A stretch of DNA of 26,963 nucleotides from a virus, in the IMG/VR virus record IMGVR_UViG_3300006805_000128, positions 1 through 26,963 of that record. One strand, given 5' to 3'. The translations under genes and the position numbers were made by a program. Below, one piece after another: positions 3,970 to 17,059 of the stretch. Below the pieces are notes generated by a model. It made no database searches. It saw nothing but the letters and a program-made list of their open reading frames with translations, and was not told the DNA's origin. Each line of letters starts with the position of its first letter. The first letter of the stretch is position 1.

Positions 3970-4349
3970 TGGCTATAATAACCGCAACACTTAACGGCTC
4001 GGCTATGCCAACAATCCAGCGTGACTTCTTAAACACGCCAAAAGAAAACGCTACTGACATTCAGACGCTAGACGGCAACCTCTATACTGATTTTGTTTCA
4101 GTTGAGCATTCATGGACATTTAACTACAGAAGCCTTGCACAAGACCAATACAACGCTCTGAGAGCAATATACGACTCACAGTTCACATTATTCGAGTATC
4201 CGTTGTTATCTATCCCATTTTACAGCCTAGAAGATGCACCAGTCAGAATGTACATTAACGAAAAGAATATCTGGTCTAATTGTGGCGATGTTCAGAATGT
4301 TCAGTTAATATTTAGGATTACAGATCAACTAGATAACGGAAGTAGCTGA
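3969..4349 (+). CDS. Distal tail protein-like (Dit-like)
   Basis: A 126-aa protein directly after the tape measure, start overlapping its stop (TAATG), with GGAGGGGG about ten bases upstream. The segment around residues 60-80 (Y-N-A-L-R-A-I-Y-D-S-Q-F) followed by F-E-Y-P and a V-R-M-Y strand resembles short distal-tail proteins that form the hexameric hub linking tail tube to tip. It is shorter than classical Dit proteins (about 200-250 aa), suggesting only the core ring domain is present. The role is inferred from position and size. Confidence 0.55.
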   Translation: MAIITATLNGSAMPTIQRDFLNTPKENATDIQTLDGNLYTDFVSVEHSWTFNYRSLAQDQYNALRAIYDSQFTLFEYPLLSIPFYSLEDAPVRMYINEKNIWSNCGDVQNVQLIFRITDQLDNGSS

Positions 4350-5899
4350 TGCAAACTACAACTGCACAATATGATGCACTTGCTAGTGGTCATGTTAGAC
4401 CTCTGTCATGGCAGTTGCGTATGTCATGGGATAAAACATTTGATCCTAATGTAGAGTTTTTTACTTTAAGTTCAGATGTTACGCCTATGTCATTGCTTGA
4501 TGGGGTAGATGTTCTTGCTCCGTCTGATGATAACCCTATTCAGGAATCTGCTAAATATGACTACAGCTCATTCACTGATCGAGTTATTAGTATGGAGTGG
4601 AGCAGAGAAGAAGAAGTACCATATTCAGTTAATCTTGCTATGGCTGATCTTACATTAAACAACTATGATAATTATTTTACAGTTGGTTCAGGTAGCCCAC
4701 TAGAACCTAATATTTTACCCGGCAGACCTTTAAGGATACTAGCTGGATTCAATAACATTAATTTGCCTCAATTCGTTGGATTGACTACTAAAACTCCACT
4801 GACAGATTACTCAGGTAATACAGCTAAACTTCATGCTACAGACTTTTTGTCTTTCATATTTGGTAAGTACATAGATCAAACAATTATGTTTCAGGATATA
4901 ACAACAACTGAATTACTAGAAGAATTATTTACTCTGATCGGCTTAACTCCTAGCCAATATGATCTAGACACTTCAACTAATGTTATAGCTTTTATATACT
5001 TTGAAAAGGGAACTACCTTTGGCAATGCTATCCGACCTATCATGCAAGCCGAACTTGGTGCTTTATATATGGACGAAGTAGGGGTAATTAGATTTAAGAA
5101 TCGTACTAGAGGCTCTGGCAATTCAGTAATCACATTTAATAAGTCAGAAGTAATTGATCTAACTTTATCTAATGAAGATACAATCATCAATACTGTCGAG
5201 GTTAAATCACAAGTTAGAGAAGTGCAGGGAAGTGAATTAATGTTTGATCTTGCCGAAGCTATTGCAGTATCAGGTAATAGCTCAACTGTCCGTTTCTTTG
5301 ATTTCACCGACCCTGTGACTACCATAGACACGATAACAACCTACACAGGTAATAGTCTTGCAGACGGTTCAGGTACAGATCAAACCTCAGATCTTAGCAT
5401 TACTGATACTGATCTATTTACAACGGCTGTTAAGGTAGAAATTACAAACAGCTCTAGTTCTACAGTGTATCTTACTGATTTATTGATCTATGGAACACCA
5501 GCAAAAGTAACTAAGAATATTTACGTTAAAGAAAGTGATCAAGATTCAATAGACAAGTTTGAGGAAAAGATAATAACAATTGACAATAACTTTGTTCAAA
5601 CAGAAGATATTGCTAGATCTCTGGCACTTACAATTCTTAATTATTATAGCGACTACACAAACACTATTGAGCTAGAACTAAAAGGTAATTATGCTTTGCA
5701 ACTTAACGATATTATGACTGTTAATGTAGATAATCTTAATCAAGAGTATGTCATTAGTAAAATTACTAATATTTTATCTGGTGGCAAGTTTACACAAAGA
5801 TTAGTAGGCAAAGTATTTAACATACCTAACTTCTTTATACTTAGCTCAGACGATACTGCAATGTCAATACTTAATGGATCGGACGTACTAGCACCATGA
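4349..5899 (+). CDS. Tail hub / tail-tip structural protein (Tal- or gp27-like)
   Basis: A 516-aa protein after the distal tail gene. The N-terminal region contains P-Y-S-V-N-L-A-M-A-D followed by L-P-G-R-P-L-R-I, as in baseplate hub proteins with a gp27-like fold. A central E-L-G-A-L-Y-M-D-E-x-G-x-I-R-F stretch and later strands L-N-D-I-M-T-V are typical of siphoviral tip proteins. No peptidoglycan-hydrolase domain is seen. Odd feature: residues 37-58 and the last 22 residues (495-516) are imperfect copies (F-F-x-L-S-S-D-x-T-x-M-S-x-L-x-G-x-D-V-L-A-P). The gene overlaps its neighbours by one and four bases. Expected to form a trimeric tip under the tail tube; exact identity is uncertain. Confidence 0.6.
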   Translation: MQTTTAQYDALASGHVRPLSWQLRMSWDKTFDPNVEFFTLSSDVTPMSLLDGVDVLAPSDDNPIQESAKYDYSSFTDRVISMEWSREEEVPYSVNLAMADLTLNNYDNYFTVGSGSPLEPNILPGRPLRILAGFNNINLPQFVGLTTKTPLTDYSGNTAKLHATDFLSFIFGKYIDQTIMFQDITTTELLEELFTLIGLTPSQYDLDTSTNVIAFIYFEKGTTFGNAIRPIMQAELGALYMDEVGVIRFKNRTRGSGNSVITFNKSEVIDLTLSNEDTIINTVEVKSQVREVQGSELMFDLAEAIAVSGNSSTVRFFDFTDPVTTIDTITTYTGNSLADGSGTDQTSDLSITDTDLFTTAVKVEITNSSSSTVYLTDLLIYGTPAKVTKNIYVKESDQDSIDKFEEKIITIDNNFVQTEDIARSLALTILNYYSDYTNTIELELKGNYALQLNDIMTVNVDNLNQEYVISKITNILSGGKFTQRLVGKVFNIPNFFILSSDDTAMSILNGSDVLAP

Positions 5900-6342
5900 G
5901 CGAATCATATCAATCAACTAAAAAAACTACTACTGACACTGACCCTAGAACTCCGAGAGAATTATTCAGAGATAAGATCACGTTGTCAGGCTTTAATGCT
6001 TTATCAACTGGGTATGGGGTTACTGGCACTTATAGAATAGATACTTTATTAGCGACAAGCATAATACCAGATATTAGAGCTGTACATTATGTTGGCCAGG
6101 GTAGTGGTATCTTCGAGTGGCGTTCTATGCCATATTCAGATAATGATATAAATGGTAACTTGCGAATAAGCACGAAAATAAGTATTGAGAATGTAATTGT
6201 TGGGGGCGGTATTGAGATTATAGACATCAAATTCAACTATTACACCAGAGAAAATAATATTGCCATACGAGATAGTGCATATTACTCACAAGATATTTAT
6301 TTTGTAGTTTATTCAAATGAGATGTTCAATTTAACAGCATAG
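5896..6342 (+). CDS. Unknown tail-region protein
   Basis: 148 aa, ATGA overlap with the tail hub gene, so it is coupled to it and probably part of the tip or an attached fibre. The N-terminus is hydrophilic and disordered-looking (S/T/K/D-rich), followed by a beta-strand-rich remainder with alternating hydrophobic residues and no membrane segment. I recognise no family. It is the last gene before the HNH insertion and the fibre-like gene at 7025, so a tip or receptor-contact role is plausible but unproven. Confidence 0.6.
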   Translation: MSESYQSTKKTTTDTDPRTPRELFRDKITLSGFNALSTGYGVTGTYRIDTLLATSIIPDIRAVHYVGQGSGIFEWRSMPYSDNDINGNLRISTKISIENVIVGGGIEIIDIKFNYYTRENNIAIRDSAYYSQDIYFVVYSNEMFNLTA

Positions 6343-6346
6343 TAAA

Positions 6347-6355
6347 TGTTATAAT
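6347..6355 (+). promoter_or_regulatory. Extended -10 promoter before HNH gene
   Basis: TG-T-TATAAT, a perfect extended -10, begins five bases after the stop of the preceding gene. No convincing -35 lies 16-18 bases upstream. Expected transcription start is near 6362, giving a 44-nt leader that holds a nine-codon ORF and two SD sites. Confidence 0.55.
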
Positions 6356-6376
6356 TAAAGATAGGAGAATAAAATT

Positions 6377-6406
6377 ATGAATATTAAAACAGAGGAGAAT
6401 AAATAA
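6377..6406 (+). CDS. Nine-residue leader peptide before HNH endonuclease
   Basis: ATG 6377 has the SD GGAG (6364-6367) and encodes M-N-I-K-T-E-E-N-K. Its TAA overlaps the ATG of the HNH gene as TAATG. The decamer GGAGAATAAA occurs twice, once before each start (6364-6373 and 6395-6404). This looks like a leader ORF that couples or limits translation of the endonuclease. It could also be a chance product of the duplicated SD. Confidence 0.4.
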   Translation: MNIKTEENK

Positions 6407-7023
6407 TGGCTGGGGTATCTAACAAGAACCACATAAATGTCCGGAAGAATGCTTGCCCACAAGGTCATGCTTATTCTGTTGAAAATACGTCATTTTCTAA
6501 AAATGGTAATAATTCTATTTCTCGTAAATGCAAGGTTTGTGTTGCTGCAAATAAACGGCGATACTACCTTGAAGTTCGCAGGTCAAAAATTGTCAAAAAT
6601 CTCGAATACGAATCACATGGTGATTCTGGTACAAGACTGTACGGCATTTGGAGTAAGATGAAACAACGGTGCCAAAACCCTAAGGATTCAAACTTCAAAG
6701 CTTATGGCGGTAGGGGCATTAAAGTTTGTGCTGAATGGCAGGACTATAGAAACTTTTCGGCTTGGGCTAAGTTGAACGGGTATAGTGATGATTTGACCAT
6801 TGATAGAAAAGATAACGATAAAGGTTACTCTCCAGAAAACTGTCGATGGACAGACGCAAAAGCACAAGCTAATAATAGGAGGAATAATAGGATGGTAACA
6901 TACAAAGGAATAACTCAGACTCTCCAGCAGTGGGCTGATGAGATTGGTATACAAACAGCTACGTTAAGATATAGATTAAACAACTGGTCAAATGATCGTG
7001 CATTGATAGAAAGGATTAAGTAG
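6406..7023 (+). CDS. HNH homing-type endonuclease with N-terminal zinc-binding region
   Basis: 205 aa. Residues 17-47 form a Cys/His cluster (C17, H21, C42, C45) like a small zinc ribbon. Residues 75-160 carry the phage HNH signature: R-L-Y-G-I-W, K-Q-R-C, Y-G-G-R-G-I-K-V-C-x-E-W, then T-I-D-R-K-D-N-D-K-G-Y-x-P-E-N-C-R-W and a Q-x-N-N-R-R-N-N-R tail. The C-terminal 40 residues (T-Y-K-G-I-T-Q-T-L-Q-Q-W-A) form a small DNA-binding repeat seen in NUMOD-type endonucleases. Such enzymes nick or cut DNA and spread themselves to phages lacking them. It stands alone between tail genes with its own promoter and leader, and no flanking split gene is seen, so it is a free-standing endonuclease. Confidence 0.85.
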   Translation: MAGVSNKNHINVRKNACPQGHAYSVENTSFSKNGNNSISRKCKVCVAANKRRYYLEVRRSKIVKNLEYESHGDSGTRLYGIWSKMKQRCQNPKDSNFKAYGGRGIKVCAEWQDYRNFSAWAKLNGYSDDLTIDRKDNDKGYSPENCRWTDAKAQANNRRNNRMVTYKGITQTLQQWADEIGIQTATLRYRLNNWSNDRALIERIK

Positions 7024-7024
7024 T

Positions 7025-7501
7025 ATGTCGCTCCCTGTACCAACCATGGTATTCACACCATTTGACCCACTTCCAGCTAGCGATCTAAATGACATAGTAG
7101 AAAACGTTGAAGCTTTAGCGGCTGGAACTGGTCTTAACGATGCTTCGGTAACAGCAGAAAAAACTGCTTTTGGTGGTGACTACTCAACATCAGAAGTAAA
7201 TACAGGGTTTAAGTGGATTGATGGGAAGACGATATATAAGAAGACCATCAACTTCGGGGCATTGCCGAATAGTACCAATAAGAATGTTGCCCACGGCATA
7301 TCATCTTTAGGGTACGTCATCGACTATTCGATGATGATGGTTAACTCAAGCAATTCGCACCAACCAGTACCGAGGACAAACACGGCTTCTACCAGTGCCC
7401 AGTCTACTATAGCTATAGACAACACATCGATATTAGTCACGACGGCTGATAATTTATCAAGTTATTCAGCATACGCAACCTTACTATACACAAAGACCTA
7501 A
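7025..7501 (+). CDS. Tail fibre / receptor-binding tip protein
   Basis: 158 aa. The N-terminus (V-F-T-P-F-D-P-L-P-A-S-D-L-N-D-I-V-E-N-V-E-A-L) is the kind of short helical anchor found on small phage tail fibres. After residue 55, T-G-F-K-W-I-D-G-K-T-I-Y-K-K-T-I-N-F-G and V-A-H-G-I-S form the beta-rich head domain common to C-terminal domains of siphoviral fibre proteins. It is the last structural gene before the lysis module, fitting an adsorption role. An SD (AAAGGA) lies inside the end of the HNH gene, so the HNH insertion may also supply its translation signal. Receptor unknown. Confidence 0.65.
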   Translation: MSLPVPTMVFTPFDPLPASDLNDIVENVEALAAGTGLNDASVTAEKTAFGGDYSTSEVNTGFKWIDGKTIYKKTINFGALPNSTNKNVAHGISSLGYVIDYSMMMVNSSNSHQPVPRTNTASTSAQSTIAIDNTSILVTTADNLSSYSAYATLLYTKT

Positions 7502-7538
7502 CCATGTCTACTAACACTCGAACACCAGAAAGGAAATA

Positions 7539-7787
7539 ATGGAAGCAGCAATAACATCAGCACTAGGTCAAGCAGGGCTAGGCTTCACGACTGGCGTTAT
7601 GATTCTGCTATTCTTTAAAGAACGTGCCGAGAAGAACAAAGTTACGGAATACGCTAGAGAACAAAACCAACTACGCTATGATGACTTCAAGAAAAACTCC
7701 GAGCTTTTACAAGAGCTTAGTACAACAACAGCCGCTACTTTGAGAAACTTAACGGATGCTATCTATGGTCAAAACAGGAGTAAATAG
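7539..7787 (+). CDS. Small membrane protein, holin candidate with coiled-coil tail
   Basis: 82 aa with SD AAAGGA before ATG 7539. One transmembrane helix near residues 8-26 (L-G-F-T-T-G-V-M-I-L-L-F-F) is followed by a charged helical tail rich in K, E, N and Q. One membrane span plus a cytoplasmic coiled coil in the gene string before an endolysin is the layout of BhlA/XhlA-like holin components, but no diagnostic motif is visible. It could equally be a lysis-accessory protein. Confidence 0.55.
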   Translation: MEAAITSALGQAGLGFTTGVMILLFFKERAEKNKVTEYAREQNQLRYDDFKKNSELLQELSTTTAATLRNLTDAIYGQNRSK

Positions 7788-7788
7788 T

Positions 7789-7989
7789 ATGTTCAACTCT
7801 AAACTAAACGAAGCATTCATACAGAAGCAGATTCAGCGAGAGTTAGAGATGGAACGGCAACGTGAGAAAACCAAGAAGAAGTTTGCCGAAGCTCAAAAAG
7901 CTAACGCCAAACTTAATGAGGCGATACAGGATATAACTACCATGAAGATTTACTGGGCTGTTGGTGGCAAGAATGGAGCGAACTCATGA
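7789..7989 (+). CDS. Small charged coiled-coil protein in lysis module
   Basis: 66 aa. ATG 7789 is chosen because AGGAG lies eight bases upstream; the longer reading from 7756 lacks a comparable SD. Residues 10-45 are almost entirely charged helix (Q-R-E-L-E-M-E-R-Q-R-E-K-T-K-K-K), followed by a short C-terminal hydrophobic patch near K-I-Y-W-A-V. It has no membrane segment and overlaps the next gene as ATGA. Family unknown; its place between two membrane proteins suggests it bridges or regulates them. Confidence 0.55.
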   Translation: MFNSKLNEAFIQKQIQRELEMERQREKTKKKFAEAQKANAKLNEAIQDITTMKIYWAVGGKNGANS

Positions 7990-8390
7990 TACCGTTTTGG
8001 GGTGCAGTCCTAGCTATGACTTTGCTAGTTATTCGTGGTTTATCTTTTCGGTTATTGGCAAGAGTATTTAATCAGCAAGTTCAGCTGTTGAAGCTACCGA
8101 TAGACCCTGATGTTTTTAAGTTGCGTTTGAGACTTCATTATATGGTTATCGGTTCGATAGTGTTTAGTGCTTTACCAGTTATTATAGACATTGCAATTGT
8201 CCTAGGTTTTTTCGGTTGGAGAGAACTTGTTAGCAATATTTTCTTGTGGGCTGGTTATTTAATGAATAACGCCTTGGCAGTTTACTTGTTTGCGTATCTG
8301 ATATACTCCATCTATAGGCTCGCAGACGATAGCGAAGATGAGCTAGAAGTCTTAGAGCGTAGGCAAATCGAAACTAAGAAAAGGAGATAG
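7986..8390 (+). CDS. Polytopic membrane protein, holin candidate
   Basis: 134 aa with GGAG seven bases before ATG 7986. Hydrophobic segments lie near residues 2-20, 52-76, 80-105 and possibly beyond (V-Y-L-F-A-Y-L-I-Y-S-I-Y), ending in a strongly charged tail (E-D-E-L-E-V-L-E-R-R followed by K-K-R-R). Multi-span topology, charged C-terminus and position directly before the endolysin make it the best holin candidate here. No holin family signature was recognised, so the call rests on topology and context. Confidence 0.55.
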   Translation: MIPFWGAVLAMTLLVIRGLSFRLLARVFNQQVQLLKLPIDPDVFKLRLRLHYMVIGSIVFSALPVIIDIAIVLGFFGWRELVSNIFLWAGYLMNNALAVYLFAYLIYSIYRLADDSEDELEVLERRQIETKKRR

Positions 8391-8392
8391 TC

Positions 8393-9190
8393 ATGGCTTA
8401 CCCAGTAACCTCACCGAAGCAGAAAACATCAGGTTGGCGTACTAAGGACAGACCTACTCACACTGGTACAGACTTTGGCTGGTATGTCGGTGGTGTAACT
8501 TACCCTCGAGATGTTTTTGCTATCTCAGACGGTACAGCTAAGACAGGCTCAGAGAGTCGAGCTGGCAATTACGTCAACCTCTACTCAGGCAACAAGCGAT
8601 GGCTCTATGGACACTTAGCTAGTATCTCAGTCAGAAACGGTCAGGCAGTTAAGGCAGGTCAGAAACTAGGTGTTATGGGTCAGACTGGCAATGCACAGGG
8701 AGTGCATCTTCACTTGAGCCTATATATAAACGGTGTAGAATCTAACCCAGAGTTGCATATAACTAACTCACCAGTTAAAAAGGAGGTCAACGTGGGAGTA
8801 ATAACAAAAGAACTAGAGCAAGTCATGGCTATCATAGCTACAGGTGGTAAGCCTGGCAGAAACTACAACTATCGGTTCACAGGTAAAGAAGCCAACCAGA
8901 CAAATGTGCAAGCCTTAGCACAGTTCTGGCAAACTCAGGCTAATGCACCGTCAGGGCTTCAAGGTATCAATAATGGTCTTAAAGCTACATTGTCTGCGAA
9001 AGACAAAGAACTAGCAGCACTCAAAAAAGCAATTGCTGATGATAAGATTGAAGATGCTAAAGTCCTAGCTAAGTTAGCTAAACTCGAGGCTCAGTCGGAC
9101 AAAGCCGAAGCTGATGCTAAAGAGCATGAGAAAGTTAAGAGTGGTTTCGTTGATGCTTTGCTGGATATTTTTAACAAGTTCAAGAAATGA
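8393..9190 (+). CDS. Endolysin: M23-type peptidase with C-terminal helical domain
   Basis: 265 aa; SD AAGGAG six bases before ATG 8393. The N-terminal half is a LytM/M23 zinc metallopeptidase. H23 and D27 form the H-x3-D motif (T-H-T-G-T-D-F-G), H74 lies in L-Y-G-H-L, and H105/H107 form the H-x-H motif (V-H-L-H-L). These enzymes cut peptide cross-bridges or stems of peptidoglycan. There is no signal peptide, so export needs a holin. Residues 134-265 form a second unit whose second half (about 185-255) is a charged coiled coil. A very strong internal SD plus in-frame GTG at 8792 could yield this unit alone. Substrate bond and wall-binding partner are not predictable. Confidence 0.85.
   Translation: MAYPVTSPKQKTSGWRTKDRPTHTGTDFGWYVGGVTYPRDVFAISDGTAKTGSESRAGNYVNLYSGNKRWLYGHLASISVRNGQAVKAGQKLGVMGQTGNAQGVHLHLSLYINGVESNPELHITNSPVKKEVNVGVITKELEQVMAIIATGGKPGRNYNYRFTGKEANQTNVQALAQFWQTQANAPSGLQGINNGLKATLSAKDKELAALKKAIADDKIEDAKVLAKLAKLEAQSDKAEADAKEHEKVKSGFVDALLDIFNKFKK
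8781..8794 (+). promoter_or_regulatory. Internal SD and GTG start inside endolysin
   Basis: AGGAGG (8781-8786), preceded by a run of A, stands five bases before an in-frame GTG (8792-8794, codon 134), exactly after the peptidase domain. It would give a 132-aa product of the C-terminal helical unit. The same bases encode K-K-E, so a chance SD is the alternative. Confidence 0.5.
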
Positions 9191-9240
9191 AGTGGGAAGA
9201 TAGAGTTCGTAATAAGGTATTAAAAAGGAGATGGTTATGA
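9187..9240 (+). CDS. 17-codon micro-ORF bridging endolysin and Acb2-like gene
   Basis: ATG 9187 overlaps the endolysin stop as ATGA, and its own TGA (9238-9240) overlaps the next ATG (9237), again as ATGA. The peptide is basic (ends K-R-R-W-L). Its last codons contain the SD for the next gene. No distinct SD of its own is seen beyond coupling. It may only be a translational bridge. Confidence 0.3.
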   Translation: MKWEDRVRNKVLKRRWL

Positions 9241-9241
9241 G
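9226..9241 (+). repeat. 16-bp direct repeat, copy 1 (SD plus start codon)
   Basis: AGGAGATGGTTATGAG covers the SD and ATG of the Acb2-like gene. An identical copy covers the SD and ATG of the next gene at 9547-9562. The two copies delimit a cassette of 321 bp containing exactly one gene. Confidence 0.8.
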
Positions 9242-9548
9242 GACCAATGTTATATCAGATTTTAAAACAGTAGAGGGTAATCCGACAGGTGGAGAATCGA
9301 AATTACCAGATAGTACAACTATTAAATGGCAAGAAGGTATTGTAGAAGGTCAGCAGAATGGTGCTTTTATTGAAGATGTTATTACTGCTGCAATTCAAAG
9401 ACTAGAGTTTTTTAATAATTCAAAATTTCGATGTCGTGAAAATAGCGTAGTCATTACTAAGCTTGAAGAAGCTTTAATGTGGTTAAATTATCGAACCGCA
9501 AATCGAACTGCTCAAGATGTTGAGAACACATATAAAACACATAAATAG
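9237..9548 (+). CDS. Predicted Acb2/Tad1-like cyclic-nucleotide sponge (anti-CBASS/anti-Thoeris)
   Basis: 103 aa; ATG 9237 is preferred over 9231 because the SD AGGAG abuts 9231. The second half has the signature helical hairpin of the Acb2/Tad1 family: I-E-D-V-I-T-A-A-I-Q-R-L-E-F-F (45-59), then N-S-K-F-R-C-R-E-N-S (61-70), V-I-T-K-L-E-E-A-L-M-W-L (72-83) and N-Y-R-T-A-N-R (84-90). The front half holds the W-Q-E-G-I-V-E strand-turn region that precedes the hairpin in many phage members. Characterised relatives are small oligomers that bind cyclic oligonucleotides (Acb2) or gcADPR (Tad1) and so block CBASS or Thoeris signalling. Family recognition is from memory; ligand and activity are inferred. 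It is a single-gene cassette between direct repeats in the lysis module. Confidence 0.7.
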   Translation: MRTNVISDFKTVEGNPTGGESKLPDSTTIKWQEGIVEGQQNGAFIEDVITAAIQRLEFFNNSKFRCRENSVVITKLEEALMWLNYRTANRTAQDVENTYKTHK

Positions 9549-9562
9549 GAGATGGTTATGAG
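9547..9562 (+). repeat. 16-bp direct repeat, copy 2
   Basis: Identical to 9226-9241, again spanning SD (AGGAG) and ATG, here of the membrane protein at 9558. Recombination between the copies would remove the Acb2-like gene cleanly and leave the downstream gene with the same SD-start unit. Confidence 0.8.
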
Positions 9563-9737
9563 TATTAATTTACCTAGCAAAGTACGGTTCGGGATTTATA
9601 TATTCACTGGTGTTGGTTCGCTTGTAATAGCCTACCTATCAACAGTCGGAGTTATCGGTTCAGCAGAGCTTGAGCTATGGACTGGACTATCGGCTTTTGT
9701 CAATGGATTGGCAGCACTTAACGTACGAGGTGAGTAA
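9558..9737 (+). CDS. Small two-span membrane protein, holin-like
   Basis: 59 aa from ATG 9558 (SD AGGAG six bases upstream; the ATG at 9552 lies against the SD and is rejected). Two hydrophobic segments, about residues 9-29 (F-G-I-Y-I-F-T-G-V-G-S-L-V-I-A-Y-L) and 36-55 (L-W-T-G-L-S-A-F-V-N-G-L-A-A-L-N), flank a short loop with A-E-L-E-L-W. This pattern matches small membrane proteins that follow the endolysin in many actinobacteriophages and are listed as holins there. Together with those at 7539 and 7986 there are three candidates for the membrane-permeabilising step. Confidence 0.6.
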   Translation: MSINLPSKVRFGIYIFTGVGSLVIAYLSTVGVIGSAELELWTGLSAFVNGLAALNVRGE

Positions 9738-9805
9738 TGGAAAACCCAGACGATCAATTAGCTGAGTACATGCAAAATGAGGGCTGGCAACTAAGTTTCG
9801 TATGA
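9737..9805 (+). CDS. 22-aa terminal ORF of rightward late operon
   Basis: Starts at the TAATG overlap with the preceding stop, with GAGG about nine bases upstream. It encodes a short acidic peptide beginning M-E-N-P-D-D-Q-L-A-E-Y and ending at TGA 9803-9805. It runs 15 bases into the 3' end of the convergent gene at 9791, so the two operons meet with overlapping coding ends. Function unknown; small enough that chance cannot be excluded. Confidence 0.4.
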   Translation: MENPDDQLAEYMQNEGWQLSFV

Positions 9806-10159
9806 ACGAGCTTCTTCTAGGGTCAATTCGCCCTCTTTGATACGATCATGAACATCTTTCAGGAACTCAACACGCTCCGACCAATCAACCTTAGTGGGGG
9901 TATTGGTTCTAAGTAGCATCTCAAATTCTAAATCGCCTAGTATTAATTCACGGAACTTATATTTACCGTCTTTACCTTGATCTAATTCGTTATGATGCTT
10001 GCGACACAACGGCACAATACATCTTAAATCGGTAACGGTAGCTGCTGCATGTTGATATAAATGAGCAGGGTCTACATTAGGATTACCGCACTTTACACAG
10101 GGATATAGCTTAATAATAGAGTTGGCTAATTTCTCGGCTTTAGCTCTCAGTTTCTTCAT
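9791..10159 (-). CDS. HNH-like zinc-binding nuclease next to RusA
   Basis: 122 aa when started at ATG 10159, chosen because GGAGG lies 12 bases upstream and overlap with rusA drops to 20 bases. C21-x2-C24 (C-V-K-C-G), V-D-P-A-H33 and C52-R-K-H55-H56 make a zinc-coordinated HNH core, and the D-P-A-H-L and V-P-L-C-R-K-H-H spacing is that of small phage HNH proteins. The last 50 residues are charged helices. Partnership with the resolvase suggests a role in recombination or DNA processing; unlike the other two HNH genes it lacks the Y-G-G-R-G homing signature and shares an operon, so it is probably a resident gene. It is the last gene of the leftward operon. Confidence 0.65.
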   Translation of the reverse strand: MKKLRAKAEKLANSIIKLYPCVKCGNPNVDPAHLYQHAAATVTDLRCIVPLCRKHHNELDQGKDGKYKFRELILGDLEFEMLLRTNTPTKVDWSERVEFLKDVHDRIKEGELTLEEARSYET

Positions 10160-10529
10160 AAGTGATTGAACCCTCCCTAGCCCAGTACTTAGATACACGA
10201 CAATCATAAATCATACAATCATCGGCATCAAACATTTTGAATATTGCATCAAAGAAAGATTTTAGTAAATTATCAACATCAGGCTTCTGCTGGTGTGGCT
10301 CTCCGTCCATCTTATTTTTCTTCTTTTCGCTCCATGACTTAGGCATCGGCATATCAAAACGTATACTGATATTGTTAGTTTTAACACCCCCTTGCCAATC
10401 AGCTCTTAGTTCGTCCGCAAACTCCCTATATCTAACAACAACAGATCGTTTATTCCATTTGTCGCTTTGAGTCTGTCTAGGCTTACCCATTGGTATGATC
10501 TTAATCGTTTGATTCAACGACATTCCCAT
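10140..10529 (-). CDS. rusA: RusA-family Holliday junction resolvase
   Basis: 129 aa. The family pattern is clear: P-M-G-K-P-R-Q-T near residue 13, R-Y-R-E-F-A-D-E-L-R at 33-42, then K-P-D84-V-D86-N-L-L-K-x-x-x-D94-A, giving the acidic residues that bind metal, and a final lysine in V-S-K-Y-W. RusA dimers cleave four-way junctions, here probably resolving concatemers or recombination intermediates produced with the ERF/YqaJ pair of the same operon. AGGTGG lies nine bases before ATG 10529; a second ATG two codons later is possible. It overlaps the upstream transglycosylase by 16 bases and the downstream HNH gene by 20. Confidence 0.88.
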   Translation of the reverse strand: MGMSLNQTIKIIPMGKPRQTQSDKWNKRSVVVRYREFADELRADWQGGVKTNNISIRFDMPMPKSWSEKKKNKMDGEPHQQKPDVDNLLKSFFDAIFKMFDADDCMIYDCRVSKYWAREGSITYEETES

Positions 10530-11026
10530 TCGCTAGCACCACCTACGCTAAATGCATAAGCTGCCACTCTAGCGTTATGATCTGCATTAAAAACATCTAG
10601 TCCACTAAGTCCGGCTTTACGCTGATACCTAGAAAAAGTTTCTGGCAAGAATTGGAAAAGCCCACTCGGATTGCCTCCTCCTGCATAGTAGCCTTTGTTA
10701 ATCGATGATGGATTGAGCGTACTTTCGCAACGTGCGACTCTTAGCATTGTTGCTGGACTTACTCCGTAATGATTAGCCCACTTAACTATTAAACTCTCTA
10801 CAGAACCACTCGCATTACTCGTTTGCGTGTCTTGTGTTGGCTTTTTAGGCTCAGACCTGACAACCTTAGCACTTGCCAATGCAACAGGCTTAAAATCGCC
10901 CTGTTCGATTACTGTAGCCTTTGTCGATGTGCGTTCTAATGGTTGCTCGATTTCCGGTGTTAGTTGTGTTTGTGGAGTTAAGCTAACCGTTAAGGCTAGC
11001 AAAGTTGCTCCGATGATTGTTTTCAT
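10514..11026 (-). CDS. Secreted SLT-type lytic transglycosylase/lysozyme-like protein
   Basis: 170 aa. Residues 1-20 (M-K-T-I-I-G-A-T-L-L-A-L-T-V-S-L) look like a signal peptide, followed by a P/T/Q/K-rich linker to about 73. Residues 74-170 form a goose-lysozyme-like SLT domain: catalytic E101 in V-A-R-C-E-S, N-P-S-S-I-N, then S-G-L-F-Q-F-L-P-E-T-F and a terminal A-A-Y-A-F-S-x-G-G-x-x-E-W-E-C. C100 and C169 could form a disulphide once exported. It cuts glycan strands. It is not in the lysis module but on the opposite strand, in the early operon beside rusA, so it would be exported during infection. No strong SD is visible before ATG 11026. Confidence 0.8.
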   Translation of the reverse strand: MKTIIGATLLALTVSLTPQTQLTPEIEQPLERTSTKATVIEQGDFKPVALASAKVVRSEPKKPTQDTQTSNASGSVESLIVKWANHYGVSPATMLRVARCESTLNPSSINKGYYAGGGNPSGLFQFLPETFSRYQRKAGLSGLDVFNADHNARVAAYAFSVGGASEWECR

Positions 11027-11031
11027 AATGA

Positions 11032-11367
11032 TTATTTAATAGATTTGATAAGCAATGCTATCGCAGCTATTAACGATGCTAAACTTAGCACGTCATTTAA
11101 CGTAAGTCTAGGAATACCGAGGTAAATCGATACTGCTACTAGAGCTATGATTAGTGCTATTGAGCCGAAGCGTATAGCTGTTTGTTTGATGTTTTTTGTA
11201 TTTCGTTTAGTCATTTTATGACCTTTCTTTTTAGTTATTTTTGTTTTAGCTTTTTGAGCTGATTTAATACTATCACGCTTACGTTTAGTTGTCAAGTGTG
11301 ACTTTATATTGAATGGCATTTGCTCGTAAAACAGAGGGTAATTCTCTAAGAACTGTGTGCGTACCAT
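11032..11367 (-). CDS. Membrane protein with basic N-terminal extension; nested start at 11214
   Basis: 111 aa from ATG 11367, whose SD AAGGAG lies five bases upstream at the junction with the preceding gene. Residues 1-60 are basic (K/R runs); residues 66-110 hold two membrane spans (F-G-S-I-A-L-I-I-A-L-V-A-V and L-A-S-L-I-A-A-I-A-L-L). Inside it, ATG 11214 has its own SD (AAGAAAGG) and an internal promoter at 11267-11295, so a 60-aa membrane-only protein (11032-11214) is probably also made. The basic extension could be a real domain or simply translated leader. Function unknown. Confidence 0.55.
   Translation of the reverse strand: MVRTQFLENYPLFYEQMPFNIKSHLTTKRKRDSIKSAQKAKTKITKKKGHKMTKRNTKNIKQTAIRFGSIALIIALVAVSIYLGIPRLTLNDVLSLASLIAAIALLIKSIK
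11267..11295 (-). promoter_or_regulatory. Promoter inside gene 11032-11367
   Basis: On the minus strand TTGACA (11290-11295, perfect -35) is 17 bases from TAGTAT (11267-11272, -10). The expected start near 11260 precedes ATG 11214 with its SD AAGAAAGG. It would drive the short membrane protein, the transglycosylase, rusA and the HNH gene separately from the upstream operon. Confidence 0.6.
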
Positions 11368-11369
11368 GA

Positions 11370-11606
11370 TCACTCCTTATTCAAGTGGATATACCGAAGT
11401 CCTAATCCACCGTTTAATGCGAATAAAATCGTGCCGAAGAACGCATAGCCATCGCCACCATCAAGCAAGATGCCTAGTGTGGCGAACCCTGCTAGGATAA
11501 CTGATAGCCATGAGATTAGCTTTAGTCCGTTCTCAGTCTGCTTGTAGTCTTTACTTGCTCTAATAGCTTTCATTTCTTGTTTCTTGCATACGTTACAGTT
11601 GTTCAT
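11370..11606 (-). CDS. Small membrane protein with N-terminal CxxC
   Basis: 78 aa starting at the ATGA overlap (11606) with the preceding gene. Begins M-N-N-C-N-V-C-K-K, a possible metal-binding or redox pair, then a charged stretch and two hydrophobic segments (about 28-48 and 55-70: G-T-I-L-F-A-L-N-G-G-L-G-L). No family recognised. It is one of four consecutive or nearby leftward genes for tiny membrane proteins, which suggests envelope remodelling or exclusion functions but does not show it. Confidence 0.6.
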   Translation of the reverse strand: MNNCNVCKKQEMKAIRASKDYKQTENGLKLISWLSVILAGFATLGILLDGGDGYAFFGTILFALNGGLGLRYIHLNKE

Positions 11607-11619
11607 AACTCACTCCTTA
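11601..11619 (-). repeat. 19-bp direct repeat (gene junction), copy A
   Basis: On the minus strand TAAGGAGTGAGTTATGAAC: SD, stop and start of the junction between genes 11603-11875 and 11370-11606. Identical to 11964-11982. Confidence 0.75.
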
Positions 11620-11875
11620 ATTGTTTAATACGTTCATCTCTAGCTTTACCTAGATAACTACTAGCTACTAGATTGGCTGAGTGCGTCACTTCGCTGATTA
11701 GTTTCCACTCATCAATCCGAGCCTCATTGATTAGAGATTGAATAGCCTGTTTAGCCTCCATAATATCGAAGTCTGTCATCACTACACCAGTAGGCTTTCC
11801 AGATGGGTTATATGTCTTAGTGTGGTCTGGATTATAGAATATGGTGTCTAGGTTATCTGATTTAAAGCCAGCCAT
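11603..11875 (-). CDS. Unknown 90-aa soluble protein
   Basis: SD AGGAG precedes ATG 11875. The first 35 residues contain N/D/T/P-rich loops; residues 36-80 look helical (M-E-A-K-Q-A-I-Q-S-L-I-N-E-A). It ends in L-R-S-E-L, the same five residues as the product of 11966-12406, because both genes end in the same SD-stop-start unit. No family recognised and no membrane segment. Confidence 0.6.
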   Translation of the reverse strand: MAGFKSDNLDTIFYNPDHTKTYNPSGKPTGVVMTDFDIMEAKQAIQSLINEARIDEWKLISEVTHSANLVASSYLGKARDERIKQLRSEL

Positions 11876-11969
11876 TTTTAACTCCTACTATTGCGAATGT
11901 ACATATAAATATAAGTAGCAACACTACTATCGTCATATGTAGTAGCTCAGGTATATCTTTATCGTTCAT
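11862..11969 (-). CDS. 35-aa single-span membrane peptide
   Basis: ATG 11969 overlaps the upstream stop (ATGA) and has the SD AAGGAG within the 19-bp repeat. A short acidic N-terminus (M-N-D-K-D-I-P-E-L-L) is followed by one strongly hydrophobic segment, about residues 12-30 (M-T-I-V-V-L-L-L-I-F-I-C-T-F-A-I-V-G-V). It ends at TAA 11862-11864, inside the start of the next gene, whose SD lies in its 3' part. SD, coupling and a clean membrane span support a real gene despite the length. Function unknown. Confidence 0.6.
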   Translation of the reverse strand: MNDKDIPELLHMTIVVLLLIFICTFAIVGVKNGWL

Positions 11970-11982
11970 AACTCACTCCTTA
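11964..11982 (-). repeat. 19-bp direct repeat (gene junction), copy B
   Basis: Identical to 11601-11619; forms the SD, stop and start between genes 11966-12406 and 11862-11969. The two copies bracket a two-gene unit of 363 bp. Confidence 0.75.
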
Positions 11983-12406
11983 GTTTTTTAATGGCTTGGT
12001 GTTGCTCCCATTTTGCATGCTCTATTGCAGACCTATAACCACCACACCATTTGCATAATCGTGTTCCTCTGTCGCTTTCAAAATCACACCATATACCCTC
12101 TACCCCACCAATAACAACTTCCTCAACGATACACAGCACCTCATTAACTCTCTTATCGATGTGGGCTTGGATGGCTTGTTCGGCTTCGGCTTCAAGCTTA
12201 GCTTCTCTTACAGCACTCTCTCTGTCTTGGAGTATTAGATTCAGAACAGCATTTACTTGGTTGTCATGCACTGTGCTATCGTTTTCTACTTCTTGTGCAT
12301 TATGTGTATACCAGCAAGTCTTATCATCGTTTTTGCAGACACAAGCACCAATGATATGTTTTATATCTTCTCTAGTTGTATCGTTGTTATTCTTCATTTC
12401 GTTCAT
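11966..12406 (-). CDS. Unknown acidic protein with CxWC motif
   Basis: 146 aa, ATGA overlap with the preceding small membrane gene. The central part (about 60-95) is an E/A/K/Q-rich helix (E-A-K-L-E-A-E-A-E-Q-A-I-Q-A-H). The C-terminal part has G-I-W-C-D-F-E-S-D-R-G-T-R-L-C-K-W-C-G-G, a possible zinc-binding knuckle, and it ends L-R-S-E-L. More cysteines occur near residues 22-31 (C-V-C and T-C-W). A structural zinc site is plausible; no function can be assigned. Confidence 0.6.
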   Translation of the reverse strand: MNEMKNNNDTTREDIKHIIGACVCKNDDKTCWYTHNAQEVENDSTVHDNQVNAVLNLILQDRESAVREAKLEAEAEQAIQAHIDKRVNEVLCIVEEVVIGGVEGIWCDFESDRGTRLCKWCGGYRSAIEHAKWEQHQAIKKLRSEL

Positions 12407-12579
12407 TTTGACCTCTTTGTTGCCATTAAAACTATTGATGTAAGTATCGAGAATAAGCCTATTGTTGCAACTAAAATTACGAATGTGTTAGTTGGGTTTA
12501 AGTATATTAAAACTACCCAGCTAGGTACGGCTAGAAATATAGATATAAAGAATATCCAGATTTTTAATTCATCGCTCAT
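12403..12579 (-). CDS. 58-aa two-span membrane protein
   Basis: ATG 12579 overlaps the upstream stop as TAATG, with SD AAAGAGG upstream; its TGA overlaps the next start. After M-S-D-E-L-K-I-W there are two hydrophobic segments, about residues 7-26 (I-F-F-I-S-I-F-L-A-V-P-S-W-V-V-L-I) and 33-52 (F-V-I-L-V-A-T-I-G-L-F-S-I-L), then a basic tail (A-T-K-R-S-K). Membrane topology and tight spacing argue for a real gene; family not recognised. Confidence 0.6.
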   Translation of the reverse strand: MSDELKIWIFFISIFLAVPSWVVLIYLNPTNTFVILVATIGLFSILTSIVLMATKRSK

Positions 12580-13172
12580 TACTTGTTCACCTCTTTAGGT
12601 ACATCTATACCAAGATGTCTTGCCGTGACAGTCGCCCAGTGTAGATCACCATGACTTATTTCTTGTTTACTTTCATCGGCTCTGTAACGAAACAAGGTAT
12701 ATTCGAATTCTGCGTAATCAAAGTTCCATTTATCACAAAGTTCCATGTGACCTTTTCGAGCTTCTTCGGCACTTGCCCAGCTACGAAAGTCTTGCTCTTC
12801 GCTAGATGCCATTTCGTATGGACAGCACTTGACGTTTGATTTTCTTGCCTTGAAAACCATTGTTTCATATTTACGATTGCCAGCTCCAATATCCTCAAAA
12901 CCATACTTTTTCATATAGGCAGCATCAAAATCATCGCCCTTAAGATGCTGATTTTCTTTATACCAAGTTGTTTTGTAAACGTCACCATGCACTGATGCGT
13001 GGATGCGACGAACTGACTGGTCGCTCCACAATTCGCCAATAGTCGAGACGATATAATCGCCAACATAAGTGTTTAATACGAAGCGACATTTATCGCCCAA
13101 GAGGAAGTGTCCTGCGTGGGGCATCCATACCCAGCTTGATTTTTCTGTGTTTAACTCATCTGGTTTAGTCAT
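12579..13172 (-). CDS. Conserved phage protein of unknown function
   Basis: 197 aa. The opening W-V-W-M-P-H-A-G-H-F-L-L-G-D-K-C-R-F, then N-T-Y-V-G-D-Y-I-V-S-T-I-G-E, and later R-K-Y-E-T-M-V-F-K-A and C-C-P-Y form a pattern I recall from hypothetical proteins of many actinobacterial and other phages, for which no function is known. Conserved His/Cys pairs could bind metal, but this is not established. A further segment, G-H-M-E-L-C-D-K-W, also matches that pattern. It sits in the early leftward operon between a KGG-like protein and a small membrane protein. Confidence 0.6.
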   Translation of the reverse strand: MTKPDELNTEKSSWVWMPHAGHFLLGDKCRFVLNTYVGDYIVSTIGELWSDQSVRRIHASVHGDVYKTTWYKENQHLKGDDFDAAYMKKYGFEDIGAGNRKYETMVFKARKSNVKCCPYEMASSEEQDFRSWASAEEARKGHMELCDKWNFDYAEFEYTLFRYRADESKQEISHGDLHWATVTARHLGIDVPKEVNK

Positions 13173-13443
13173 CGCTTACTTTCTTAGCTGGTCCACGTTT
13201 TGAGATGCGACCACCAAGATAACCAGCTCTACGAGCCAATTCCCTGTTAGCATCGAACCCTCTAGGATTGGCTATACCTTGAGCTTGTCGCTCTCGGTAG
13301 GCTTCAGCACCTCTTGTACCTAGTTTTGAGTAGTAATCTGCTCCGTGTTTTTTCTTATTGTTCAGTGCGGTTAGCTTGCCACCAGTAGCACCGATAATAT
13401 TTCCATCTTCATCATATATATATTCGCCTTTGATTCCTGCCAT
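13165..13443 (-). CDS. Basic KGG-motif-like protein
   Basis: 92 aa with a very strong SD (AGGAGG, eight bases before ATG 13443). Residues 34-50 (G-A-D-Y-Y-S-K-L-G-T-R-G-A-E-A-Y) and 64-82 (A-N-R-E-L-A-R-R-A-G-Y-L-G-G-R) are two degenerate copies of the short K-G-G-type helix repeat seen in stress-response and small phage proteins. The protein is basic and glycine-rich, so nucleic-acid binding is plausible but unproven. It follows the winged-helix gene by one base. Confidence 0.55.
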   Translation of the reverse strand: MAGIKGEYIYDEDGNIIGATGGKLTALNNKKKHGADYYSKLGTRGAEAYRERQAQGIANPRGFDANRELARRAGYLGGRISKRGPAKKVSDD

Positions 13444-13444
13444 G

Positions 13445-13777
13445 TTATAATCCTCCTAATTTTAATTGATCTAATTTATTTAATGTTCCTTTGAACTCTG
13501 GTATTTCTGGTACATAGTTTTCTACAGTTGTCTTGGCTTTCCAAAACTTAACTGTTCTACCGGTATGCCCTTTATCCTTATACGCAACTTCAATCACGCC
13601 AGCCTTGAATAGCTCTCTACTCCTACCAGTCACTTCGTTAATAGGTACTCCAAGCAACTCACTGATTCGCCAGTTGTCTATAGCACCCTCACGCTCAATT
13701 ATGTCTAGGACTGCTTGTTGCTTTGCTCCTAGATGTTCTATTGATTTGTAAGCATTTCTGCTCGTATCTGCGATCAT
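13445..13777 (-). CDS. Winged-helix DNA-binding protein
   Basis: 110 aa, starting at an ATGA overlap. Residues 15-70 read as a winged helix: A-K-Q-Q-A-V-L-D-I-I-E-R-E-G (helix 1), I-S-E-L-L-G-V-P-I-N-E-V-T-G-R-S-R-E-L (helix-turn-helix), then G-V-I-E-V-A-Y with a basic wing (K-D-K-G-H-T-G-R-T). The C-terminal tail is extended. This is a MarR/ArsR-like fold, probably a regulator of phage genes or a host-takeover DNA-binding protein. It is inside the early operon rather than next to a divergent promoter, so it is not an obvious lysogeny repressor. Confidence 0.65.
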   Translation of the reverse strand: MIADTSRNAYKSIEHLGAKQQAVLDIIEREGAIDNWRISELLGVPINEVTGRSRELFKAGVIEVAYKDKGHTGRTVKFWKAKTTVENYVPEIPEFKGTLNKLDQLKLGGL

Positions 13778-14148
13778 TTGTCACCAAACCTTTCATTCTC
13801 ATAATATTTTAATCTTCGACGGATACTTATCATTAAATCTTGAGTGCCTTTAAATACATACAGGCATAGTTCGTATTCTTTTCTGGCTTCGTTAGCATCA
13901 ACTTTGGCGGCTCTTTCACTATCGCCCTGTGACATTTTCTTGCCATCAGCTAGAGTTGTTTCCCGATACTTAAAATATGACTCGTTATCTATACTGGTAG
14001 CCAATCGGTGTAGTGGTGCTATCTTTTCAGCAATCATGTGGTTATAAGTTGCTATTCGTTGTTCAGCAACCATTAATGACTTGATGTCTGACCAATTGAT
14101 CTTATCTCGCTCAGTGTCAATCTTTTCCACTATGTCATTTGGGTACAT
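13774..14148 (-). CDS. Unknown recombination-module protein
   Basis: 124 aa from ATG 14148 (GGAG upstream, 14-base overlap with the exonuclease gene); the longer reading from 14187 has no comparable SD. Predominantly helical and charged, with K-Y-R-E-T-T-L-A-D-G-K-K and A-A-K-V-D-A-N-E-A-R-K-E-Y near the middle and a basic I-R-R-R-L-K-Y-Y-E-N-E end. Proteins of similar size and composition often follow exonuclease and annealase genes in phages, but their function is unknown. A role in DNA recombination is inferred from position only. Confidence 0.55.
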   Translation of the reverse strand: MYPNDIVEKIDTERDKINWSDIKSLMVAEQRIATYNHMIAEKIAPLHRLATSIDNESYFKYRETTLADGKKMSQGDSERAAKVDANEARKEYELCLYVFKGTQDLMISIRRRLKYYENERFGDK

Positions 14149-14764
14149 TAGAAAGCTCCATCGCTCGATCATAGAAATCATTAACATCTTCTAGCAAGTC
14201 TAATGTCTGAGTTTCTATGGCATCAATTCTTTTCTCATCACGTTCATAAGTTACGATTGCAAGCTGTAAGAACTCATCATCTATTAGTGGACTGTAGCTT
14301 ACAAAATCAATCTTCTTAAAGCCTGTGATCCACATTTGGAAGTCCATTTGCTTTTTGTACTTACTATCAATGAAGTTGTCGAGCTTTGCCATTAAATGAA
14401 TATGTGGTAATTGAGTTTTGATCTCTAAACCAAATTCCTCGTTTACAATTCCGTCTGGACTTGCCCCGGCATCATGTTTATCATGCACCCAAAAGCCACT
14501 CTCTCGAACTTTATGACCTGTCTGCATTGAGTACATTAGTCTAGCGACTGGTTCGTTTGCTGTGCCATCGTCCATATAGTCATTAGAATAACCCTCAATC
14601 TCTTTACCTGTGAACTTTTGAGTGGCTAGTTTAGCTCTGTAGCTTTTGTAAGCAATTGTGCTATTGCCAGCCATTATCTGATGGGCGTGCGATGCTGTAG
14701 CTCTTGGTAGTCTAAGCTCGAACCAAGCCTTGCTACCCTGCTCTACATCTATTTCTTTAGCCAT
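14135..14764 (-). CDS. YqaJ / lambda-exonuclease family 5'-3' exonuclease
   Basis: 209 aa from ATG 14764, five bases after the SD AAAGGTGG. The family blocks are present in order: Q-G-S-K-A-W-F-E-L-R (9-18), A-T-A-S (22-25), D-G-T-A-N-E71-P-V-A-R, A-S-P-D104-G-I and L-E114-I-K116. D104 with E114-x-K116 is the PD-(D/E)xK metal centre. These ring-shaped enzymes degrade the 5' strand of dsDNA, loading the annealing protein onto the 3' strand. With the ERF gene two positions upstream it forms a two-component phage recombinase for double-strand-break repair and concatemer formation. Confidence 0.88.
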   Translation of the reverse strand: MAKEIDVEQGSKAWFELRLPRATASHAHQIMAGNSTIAYKSYRAKLATQKFTGKEIEGYSNDYMDDGTANEPVARLMYSMQTGHKVRESGFWVHDKHDAGASPDGIVNEEFGLEIKTQLPHIHLMAKLDNFIDSKYKKQMDFQMWITGFKKIDFVSYSPLIDDEFLQLAIVTYERDEKRIDAIETQTLDLLEDVNDFYDRAMELSNVPK

Positions 14765-15041
14765 TATTGCCACCTTTTTCTATATAATTTCGGATAAGAA
14801 TATCCGCATCTTTAAATCCATAAGCTACAAGCTTGTTGTATACCTTTAAAGCTTCTATGACTATAACCTCATCAGCTAGTAATGCTTTGCCGGATAAATT
14901 TTTGTGCATGATTATCTGCTCTTTATACTCGTTGATATAGTCAAGATTTAGTTCTTTGCCTCTAGCTCTATCTATAAGAACCAAGATTAGACCCTCAAAT
15001 GCTGCCCCTACATCTGATAAATATTTTTTTATACTAGACAT
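14757..15041 (-). CDS. Unknown small helical protein between ERF and exonuclease
   Basis: 94 aa from ATG 15041, which overlaps the ERF gene end by eight bases; the frame is open further upstream to 15092 but without a good SD. Mostly amphipathic helix, beginning M-S-S-I-K-K-Y-L-S-D and ending Y-I-E-K-G-G-N-N-G. No domain recognised. Being wedged with overlaps between annealase and exonuclease genes suggests a factor of the same pathway, without direct evidence. Confidence 0.55.
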   Translation of the reverse strand: MSSIKKYLSDVGAAFEGLILVLIDRARGKELNLDYINEYKEQIIMHKNLSGKALLADEVIVIEALKVYNKLVAYGFKDADILIRNYIEKGGNNG

Positions 15042-15588
15042 TCTTAGCCTCAATCTTTTCTTTGTGAGCTGTGAACATGTCTTGATTATCAATCTTTTGA
15101 TCGGCTGTAAGCTTGTTAAACAAATAAGCCATATCTCTAACTGATGTTGTTAGCTCTAGCTTATCCTTGATTTGTTTGTCAGTTAGTTCAGGTTCGCTAG
15201 TAGAGTTAGTTGTGTCTGCATCTACATTGTCATCTATTGCAAACAGTCCATTAGCTGAGTATTTGCGAGCGTATGAGCTTGTTGAGCCTGTTAGTTGGCT
15301 ATCGTCCATGCCTTTTTTTTGTTCAGGCTCTCTAGCATACCCAGTAGCACTAATCTCATTCTTGCCATCGCTGATTGTTGTAGTGGCTTTAATATAGTGT
15401 CTTGTTCCTACTGCTACCATTTCGTCATTCTGCAACAAAATTATATTGTGCTTTTTAAGTAGTGGCTTAACAGCCGTTAATATATCCTCATTAGACCGGT
15501 AATCAAAACCACCGAATGAGTTATGCTTGCCTTTCAATACAACCAGTGTTTGCTGTATCTCGATTAGCTTTTTATTTAATTCTTCCAT
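15034..15588 (-). CDS. erf: ERF-family single-strand annealing protein
   Basis: 184 aa with leader SD AAGAAAGG (15597-15604) and its own promoter. Characteristic ERF segments: F-D-Y-R-S-N-E-D-I (28-36), V-K-P-L-L (40-44), G-x-D-D-S-Q-L-T-G-S-x-S-S-Y-A-R-K-Y (93-110), then L-F-A-I-D-D-N-x-D-A-D (115-125). ERF/Rad52-like rings bind single-stranded DNA and anneal complementary strands, here probably in tandem with the YqaJ exonuclease at 14135. The last 50 residues are a variable, helical C-terminus possibly contacting the exonuclease or host SSB. Confidence 0.9.
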   Translation of the reverse strand: MEELNKKLIEIQQTLVVLKGKHNSFGGFDYRSNEDILTAVKPLLKKHNIILLQNDEMVAVGTRHYIKATTTISDGKNEISATGYAREPEQKKGMDDSQLTGSTSSYARKYSANGLFAIDDNVDADTTNSTSEPELTDKQIKDKLELTTSVRDMAYLFNKLTADQKIDNQDMFTAHKEKIEAKNV

Positions 15589-15614
15589 TTTTAAACCTTT
15601 CTTAATGTACTTTA

Positions 15615-15643
15615 ATTATAAACGTATGCTAGTTATTATGCAA
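15615..15643 (-). promoter_or_regulatory. Leftward promoter of the recombination operon
   Basis: On the minus strand TTGCAT (15638-15643) is 17 bases from TATAAT (15615-15620), a near-consensus sigma-70-type promoter. The start would fall near 15608, giving a 20-nt leader with the SD AAGAAAGG. It overlaps the 3' end of gene 15636-15767 and resembles the block at 16977-17032. Confidence 0.75.
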
Positions 15644-15767
15644 GTGTTTTGTAGTGATTTTCTATTAACTCCATAATTCGATCTAACTGCTTTTCACTTA
15701 GTAGATAACCGTCTGTTATGTCGCTATGATACTTAGTAACCTGTTTTATTTGGTGGCGTAAGTTCAT
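15636..15767 (-). CDS. 43-aa hydrophilic protein
   Basis: ATG 15767 shares a base with the upstream TAA (TAATG) and the frame ends at TAA 15636-15638, within the -35 of the next promoter. The peptide is hydrophilic and helical (S-E-K-Q-L-D-R-I-M-E-L-I-E-N-H-Y). There is only a weak SD (AGG), so expression would rely on coupling. Otherwise this stretch of 178 bases would be empty, which the rest of the operon never is. Function unknown. Confidence 0.5.
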   Translation of the reverse strand: MNLRHQIKQVTKYHSDITDGYLLSEKQLDRIMELIENHYKTLA

Positions 15768-16081
15768 TAAAACAAACCTATTTCCTTTCCTTGAATAACT
15801 TTCATCATTATATTTTTATTATTACGTCTAACTTTATTCAGGTTCTTTTCTTCAATTCCAGACAATCTCTTGTGTTCTAAGACTTTGCTCAAATATTCAC
15901 TGACAATGTAGGTTTTCTCATCTAAATCAAGTAATTGCTGGCCATCAATCTTAGATAAAAACATATCTGGTGGAAGTCCATGCTGAGTACTAAAAATAAA
16001 CATCTGTTCTGCTAGTATATCTAGCTGTGGACTTCTTTTAGAATATGCCACTAATAATCTGCCAGCTAATTCTTCATCCAT
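15767..16081 (-). CDS. Unknown 104-aa early protein
   Basis: ATG 16081 with GAGGAG seven bases upstream is preferred to the longer reading from 16108. The protein starts M-D-E-E-L-A-G-R-L-L and has alternating helices with a basic C-terminal third (K-N-L-N-K-V-R-R-N-N-K-N). No membrane span or recognised domain. It overlaps its upstream neighbour by eight bases. Confidence 0.55.
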   Translation of the reverse strand: MDEELAGRLLVAYSKRSPQLDILAEQMFIFSTQHGLPPDMFLSKIDGQQLLDLDEKTYIVSEYLSKVLEHKRLSGIEEKNLNKVRRNNKNIMMKVIQGKEIGLF

Positions 16082-16745: not shown

Positions 16746-16786
16746 TGTTGCACTCCTCATTTCATTATTGACCATTATTCGACTGA

Positions 16787-16975: not shown

Positions 16976-17003
16976 TATTTAAACCTTTCTTTTATTGTAC
17001 TTT

Positions 17004-17032
17004 AATCTTAACATACGCATAATAGAATGTAA
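17004..17032 (-). promoter_or_regulatory. Leftward early promoter
   Basis: On the minus strand TTTACA (17027-17032) is 17 bases from TAAGAT (17004-17009). The expected start near 16997 gives a 22-nt leader with SD AAGAAAGG. The alignment with the block at 15590-15643 keeps the spacer length, the A-T-T-A-A-A-G-T-A-C-A stretch after the -10 and the SD, which supports the assignment despite the imperfect -10. Confidence 0.6.
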
Positions 17033-17059
17033 ATAGTTTCATCAAAGATTATTTAAAAG

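Follow-up and report, generated by a model that had tools for sequence, protein, structure and literature searches.

What does the small gene behind the endolysin gene of this phage encode, and which defence signals, in which host, might its product intercept? A first, sequence-only reading had predicted a cyclic-nucleotide sponge of the Acb2/Tad1 family that sequesters CBASS or Thoeris signal molecules, in a phage whose host could be an ultrasmall epibiont. The window, i.e., the whole stretch of DNA analysed here (26,963 bases), is an entire IMG/VR record (G000) and corresponds to a fragment of a tailed phage. Three aspects are considered below: the family and fold of the protein, the position of its gene, and the presence of suitable targets in the presumed host.

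Family membership and predicted fold

The gene (9237–9548, + strand) is an open reading frame for 103 amino acids, as predicted. Its ATG at 9237 is placed 6 nt downstream of an AGGAG ribosome site, while an alternative in-frame ATG at 9231 abuts the AGGAG itself, which makes 9237 the better start. The motifs that had drawn attention to the protein are present, namely NSKFRCREN (from residue 61), ITKLEEALMWL (73–83) and RTANR (86–90). The Pfam hairpin profile (PF24729, Acb2_Tad1_hairpin) recognises the protein (E 6.8e-6), though with 26.6 bits it remains 0.4 bits under the Pfam cut-off of 27; it matches 48 of the 49 homologues at E up to 0.01. NCBIfam gave no match to the protein, and no Tad1 homologues were found on plasmids. 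A match to PHROG family phrog_2428 has an E-value of 8.2e-22, and 57 records of annotated phages are found at E<0.01, some with genes annotated as Tad1. Among them the validated anti-Thoeris gene product SBSphiJ7 Tad1 is 52 % identical over residues 27–100. When PDB sequences were searched with phmmer, CmTad1 (8kbb), CbTad1 (7uav) and gp184 (8y6v) were matched at 8.1e-14, 3.5e-9 and 6e-4, respectively; the family profile (A2) reached 2e-37 for solved Tad1 and 2.5e-11 for the phiKZ-type gp184. Such values are far beyond chance, and the family assignment holds.

Within the family the placement can be narrowed to Tad1. Acb2 was considered as the closest family and set aside, no Acb2 chain being matched in the PDB at E up to 1 by either the sequence or the family profile. 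Homology to Tad1 proteins (SBSphiJ7 Tad1; CbTad1, 7uav and 8smd; CmTad1, 8kbb; phiKZ Tad1/gp184) extends over residues 20–100 and comprises the same helical hairpin, a WQ/FQxG strand motif, an NG turn, and the CREN, KLEEALMWL and RTxxR motifs. With Acb2, including T4 Vs.4, the protein has the Pfam hairpin domain (scored just under the cut-off) in common, but the Acb2 N-terminus is a short helix without strands (PMC12043709).

An AlphaFold model built with the 49 homologues contains two helices (residues 45–60 and 67–92, pLDDT about 98) that form a C-terminal antiparallel hairpin. The N-terminal part is modelled at pLDDT 41–68 with only two strands (20–22 and 28–30), both of low confidence. All of the 20 Foldseek matches below E 0.001 are Tad1 chains and the next match has an E-value of 1.5, so that no other PDB chain matches strongly. 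VIA-align superposes the model on CbTad1 with a Z of 9.4 and an rmsd of 2.3–2.4 over 87 residues. T4 Vs.4 (7uq2), which we take to be an Acb2 relative, superposes on the hairpin with a Z of 5.4 over 57 residues. Apart from this, the fold lists contain Acb2 relatives weakly or not at all, which by itself excludes nothing. The model of a close relative, L003, is better defined at the N-terminus (pLDDT mostly 84–91, three strands); its hairpin can be fitted to that of Tad1 (rmsd about 1.1, 61 residues), but the strands of L003 fail to superpose on those of Tad1. An N-terminal helix of the Acb2 type is absent from both models, the window protein being modelled there at low confidence. Of the outcomes that would have spoken against the first reading, neither the lack of a profile match nor a fold devoid of the antiparallel hairpin was observed. 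The protein very probably belongs to the Acb2/Tad1 hairpin superfamily, as a divergent representative closer to Tad1.

Scanning viral contigs yielded 79 homologous loci. Since the peptide KLEEALMW was one of the search patterns, its invariance among the homologues carries no weight. In the family tree the window protein groups with eight others, all from IMG/VR phages (L002, L003, L004, L008, L011, L012, L016 and L019), in a clade with a short N-terminus (support 100/98) and the signature GNPxGG...I-WQxG...NGAFxE. The members of this subgroup can be aligned with the window protein over the full length at 41–50 % identity. Among them the window protein diverges most, lacking the GPLGRGxxRxEP insertion as well as an R and a G of the tail. 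Its N-terminal strand region, initially described as longer, in fact comprises 44 residues ahead of helix 1 compared with about 65 in CbTad1, and is longer only than that of Acb2. The region is thus about 20 residues shorter than in Tad1, with DFKTVEGNPTGGE in place of the Tad1 strands YTxVxHE...APHxF.

Despite a long branch (1.53), the positions that characterise the family are mostly in place. G42, R86 and R90 are invariant across the 49 homologues, and R55, R67, N69 and T74 are almost invariant; the window protein has kept all seven, as well as F59. Branch length and the loss of several subgroup-consensus residues could also betray a decaying, inactive Tad1 copy, but the intact reading frame, the well-placed ribosome site, and the preservation of the hairpin core and of most conserved positions make this very improbable.

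In the C-terminal tail, RGVEGT of Tad1 becomes QDVENT. Two of the substitutions, R93Q and G97N, affect positions that are R and G in 96 % of the 49 homologues. The Tad1 tail helps to line the pocket for gcADPR and cyclic dinucleotides, while the trinucleotide sites are separate from this pocket and independent of it (PMC12043709). Because the two substitutions fall within this tail, the ligand range of the window protein is possibly shifted. One can therefore envisage a protein of the same fold whose gcADPR/dinucleotide pocket is impaired or retuned while the cyclic-trinucleotide sites persist, i.e., a specialist directed against CBASS systems signalling through cA3 or cAAG. This would be a refinement of the sponge explanation rather than its opposite. 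Residues F82, N92, R109 and R113 of CbTad1, which we take to contact gcADPR, nevertheless align to the conserved F59, N69, R86 and R90, and such a specialisation appears possible but rather doubtful.

A presumably late gene next to the endolysin

The Tad1-type gene does lie in the lysis module, as had been claimed. Head-tail and tail genes (0.06–7.5 kb) are followed by this module (7.5–9.7 kb), by leftward genes that include the recombination genes RusA, ERF and YqaJ (within 9.8–17 kb), by replication and glycosyltransferase-like genes, and finally by the terminase gene (24.6–26.0 kb). The lysis module, transcribed from the + strand, comprises a hydrophobic membrane-type protein without family match (7986–8390), an endolysin of the M23 peptidase family directly upstream of the Tad1-type gene (8393–9190; PF01551, E 1.9e-17) and, downstream of it, a membrane-type ORF of 61 amino acids (9552–9737), which is the final gene before the strand switch. 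Both membrane-type proteins are holin candidates from their position only.

Several other features of the window deserve mention in their own right. Three consecutive glycosyltransferase-like ORFs (20761–23155), the third of which, a GT4, weakly matches a “GT4-conflict” model, perhaps serve surface or DNA glycosylation. Two related putative HNH homing-type endonucleases are encoded between the tail genes (6406–7023) and in the replication region (20034–20582), with a third relative in another contig (L088, 3543–4124). On the − strand, positions 13165–13443 encode a protein of 92 amino acids (RGAEAYRERQAQGIANPRGF...); its DNA is found again in about 10 of 270 Saccharimonadia genomes, long contigs included.

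The ribosome site and start of the Tad1-type gene lie within a 16-bp sequence, AGGAGATGGTTATGAG (9226–9241, + strand), that is repeated exactly where the next ORF starts (9547–9562, + strand). These are the only two copies in the window and they are 321 bp apart. Since deletion of one repeat together with the gene would leave the next gene intact, the gene has the appearance of a cassette. Its GC3 of 0.18 is below that of its lysis neighbours (0.38–0.39), but composition is weak evidence by itself, the tape measure gene having a similar value (0.22). A search of viral contigs for relatives of the endolysin and of the genes at 7986–8390 and 9791–10207, with cassette gain or loss in mind, found none. 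Nor was Tad1 found in the closest related phage records (G001–G003), which are fragments or have no recognisable syntenic lysis region. One of these, G002 (35,267 bases), has a terminase of 85 % identity and several head-tail genes in common with the window. It looks circular and complete because a gene common to both wraps around its ends, and the comparison suggests that about 8 kb are absent from the window.

The vicinity of the endolysin raises the question whether the hairpin has been reused in a virion or lysis-associated structural protein that does not bind nucleotides. “Putative structural protein” is the annotation given to some homologues (P59 and CM1), and the solved PDB entry 8y6v includes the homologue gp184 among its chains. 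The phiKZ phage encodes a Tad1 that is reportedly injected with the virion; the injected protein is reported to block both CBASS and Thoeris, and presence in the virion is therefore compatible with a role as a sponge (PMC13282480). A review lists orf184 as a CBASS-blocking Tad1 (PMC12043709). L028 (4034–5222), a prophage-like contig that otherwise differs from the window, shows the same arrangement, with a classic Tad1 gene immediately after an M23 endolysin of 27 % identity to that of the window, but this adjacency was not seen in the other subgroup members inspected, which occur in other phages without a common endolysin link. The site is thus more likely a common insertion place than the sign of a functional link to lysis. 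As the charged hairpin positions R86 and R90 are also kept, in agreement with a ligand site, a purely structural role is improbable, and a sponge of the Tad1 type remains the preferred reading.

The presumed host

Three genes of the window point to Saccharibacteria. A genome scan with an alignment of the terminase large subunit (24603–26006, + strand) returned 80 loci, the best four of which include three Saccharibacteria contigs. The TerL tree unites these three Saccharibacteria terminases with those of the window, G002 and L083 (100/98), apart from 80 mainly Bacillota rows. The class concerned is Saccharimonadia, to which the Candidatus Saccharibacteria genome of L095 belongs. The putative major tail protein, so called from position and synteny (663–1223, + strand), has relatives in 2 of 295 Saccharimonadia genomes (best E 2.5e-46) compared with 1 of 245 Clostridia genomes (best E 4e-5). 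The best of these, G187, has a 17-kb phage contig whose head-tail genes are collinear with those of the window. It also has a chromosomal contig on which a 90-residue relic of the major tail protein (L180, 15356–15628) persists, flanked on both sides by type IV pilus ATPase-like genes. Lastly, a tail protein identified by position (7025–7501, + strand) is 47 % identical over 107 amino acids to a protein from a prophage of another Saccharimonadia genome than G187.

Other parts of the window are less informative. The replication gene (17562–18422) has its nearest relatives in Clostridia. Matches at the DNA level to positions 1–19900 occur in 31 of 270 Saccharimonadia and 46 of 265 Clostridia genomes, which are larger, and do not discriminate between the two. 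No clear CRISPR spacer matching the window was seen, and contig G006 reads as N beyond the terminase region. One Saccharimonadia genome contains a prophage that encodes terminase, portal and major head proteins (L248, with flanks L249 and L250); the two tRNA-Thr(GGT) genes on either side of it are 86 % identical and separated by 32.6 kb. The proposal of an ultrasmall epibiont as host is hence moderately supported: terminase phylogeny, major tail protein and tail protein favour it while the replication gene leans towards Clostridia, and on balance a host among the Saccharibacteria seems fairly probable.

Targets and proposed function

In line with the expectation that the host or its relatives use cyclic-nucleotide defences, the Saccharimonadia do encode CBASS and Thoeris genes. 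SMODS (CBASS-type) cyclases are encoded in 19 of 295 genomes and ThsB in 7 of 295, so that plausible targets for a sponge exist in this class. A CBASS-type operon consists of NucC followed by a CD-NTase (L215, 3946–5932). At two loci (L223, 4197–5620; L226, 4124–5588) a SLATT 2TM effector accompanies the CD-NTase, and as each of these lies on one contig (1.10 Mb and 1.16 Mb, respectively), mis-binning is argued against. Elsewhere a 4TM effector adjoins a cyclase match (L227, 3452–5234), and SLATT_4 and a cyclase are found within a type I restriction locus (L221, 3524–5250). The one complete Thoeris operon, ThsB-ThsA(Macro)-ThsB, is carried by a Saccharimonadia bin (L211, 4380–6222, − strand).

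ThsA-Macro systems reportedly use His-ADPR (work by Sabonis and colleagues from 2025), a molecule that Tad1 is not known to bind. CBASS, above all of the NucC type, is a likelier target than Thoeris of this kind. The same inventory lends some weight to the trinucleotide specialist discussed above, the NucC operon being of the classical cA3 type and cyclases outnumbering ThsB. That no Tad1 was found in the 295 Saccharimonadia genomes, on the other hand, counts against the sponge reading.

Taken together, the window protein is likely a late-expressed Tad1-type sponge that sequesters CBASS and/or Thoeris signals. The protein would be small and oligomeric, with a short strand region at its N-terminus ahead of the C-terminal antiparallel hairpin, presumably assembled into a hexamer (a trimer of dimers) by analogy with CbTad1, CmTad1 and phiKZ Tad1. 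Expressed from the late rightward operon directly after the endolysin, it would bind TIR-made gcADPR and the cyclic di- and trinucleotides of CBASS tightly without degrading them. NucC, 2TM/4TM pores or ThsA effectors would then stay off, and the infected cell would survive long enough for phage release. More tentative is the fuller proposition of a Saccharibacteria phage with a short-subgroup Tad1 sponge whose retuned pocket gives it a ligand range unlike that of the characterised Tad1 proteins.

The interest of this new Tad1 member is mainly its host context. CPR bacteria carry many diverse defence systems (PMC12259885) and Tad1 itself is already known, hence the surprise is moderate. A text search of the literature for a connection between Saccharibacteria or Patescibacteria and CBASS found none except for one paper with passing mentions. 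If correct, this would be the first case in which a counter-defence protein is linked to CBASS or Thoeris of ultrasmall epibionts, and nucleotide-signal sequestration would extend to phages of the Candidate Phyla Radiation. Epibionts with genomes of about 1 Mb would use CBASS- or Thoeris-type signalling and face attack through such signalling. The window protein and the NucC- or pore-type CBASS operons of the same bacterial class form a concrete pair in this respect, and the short subgroup would be a natural system in which to see what region of Tad1 determines the choice of ligand.
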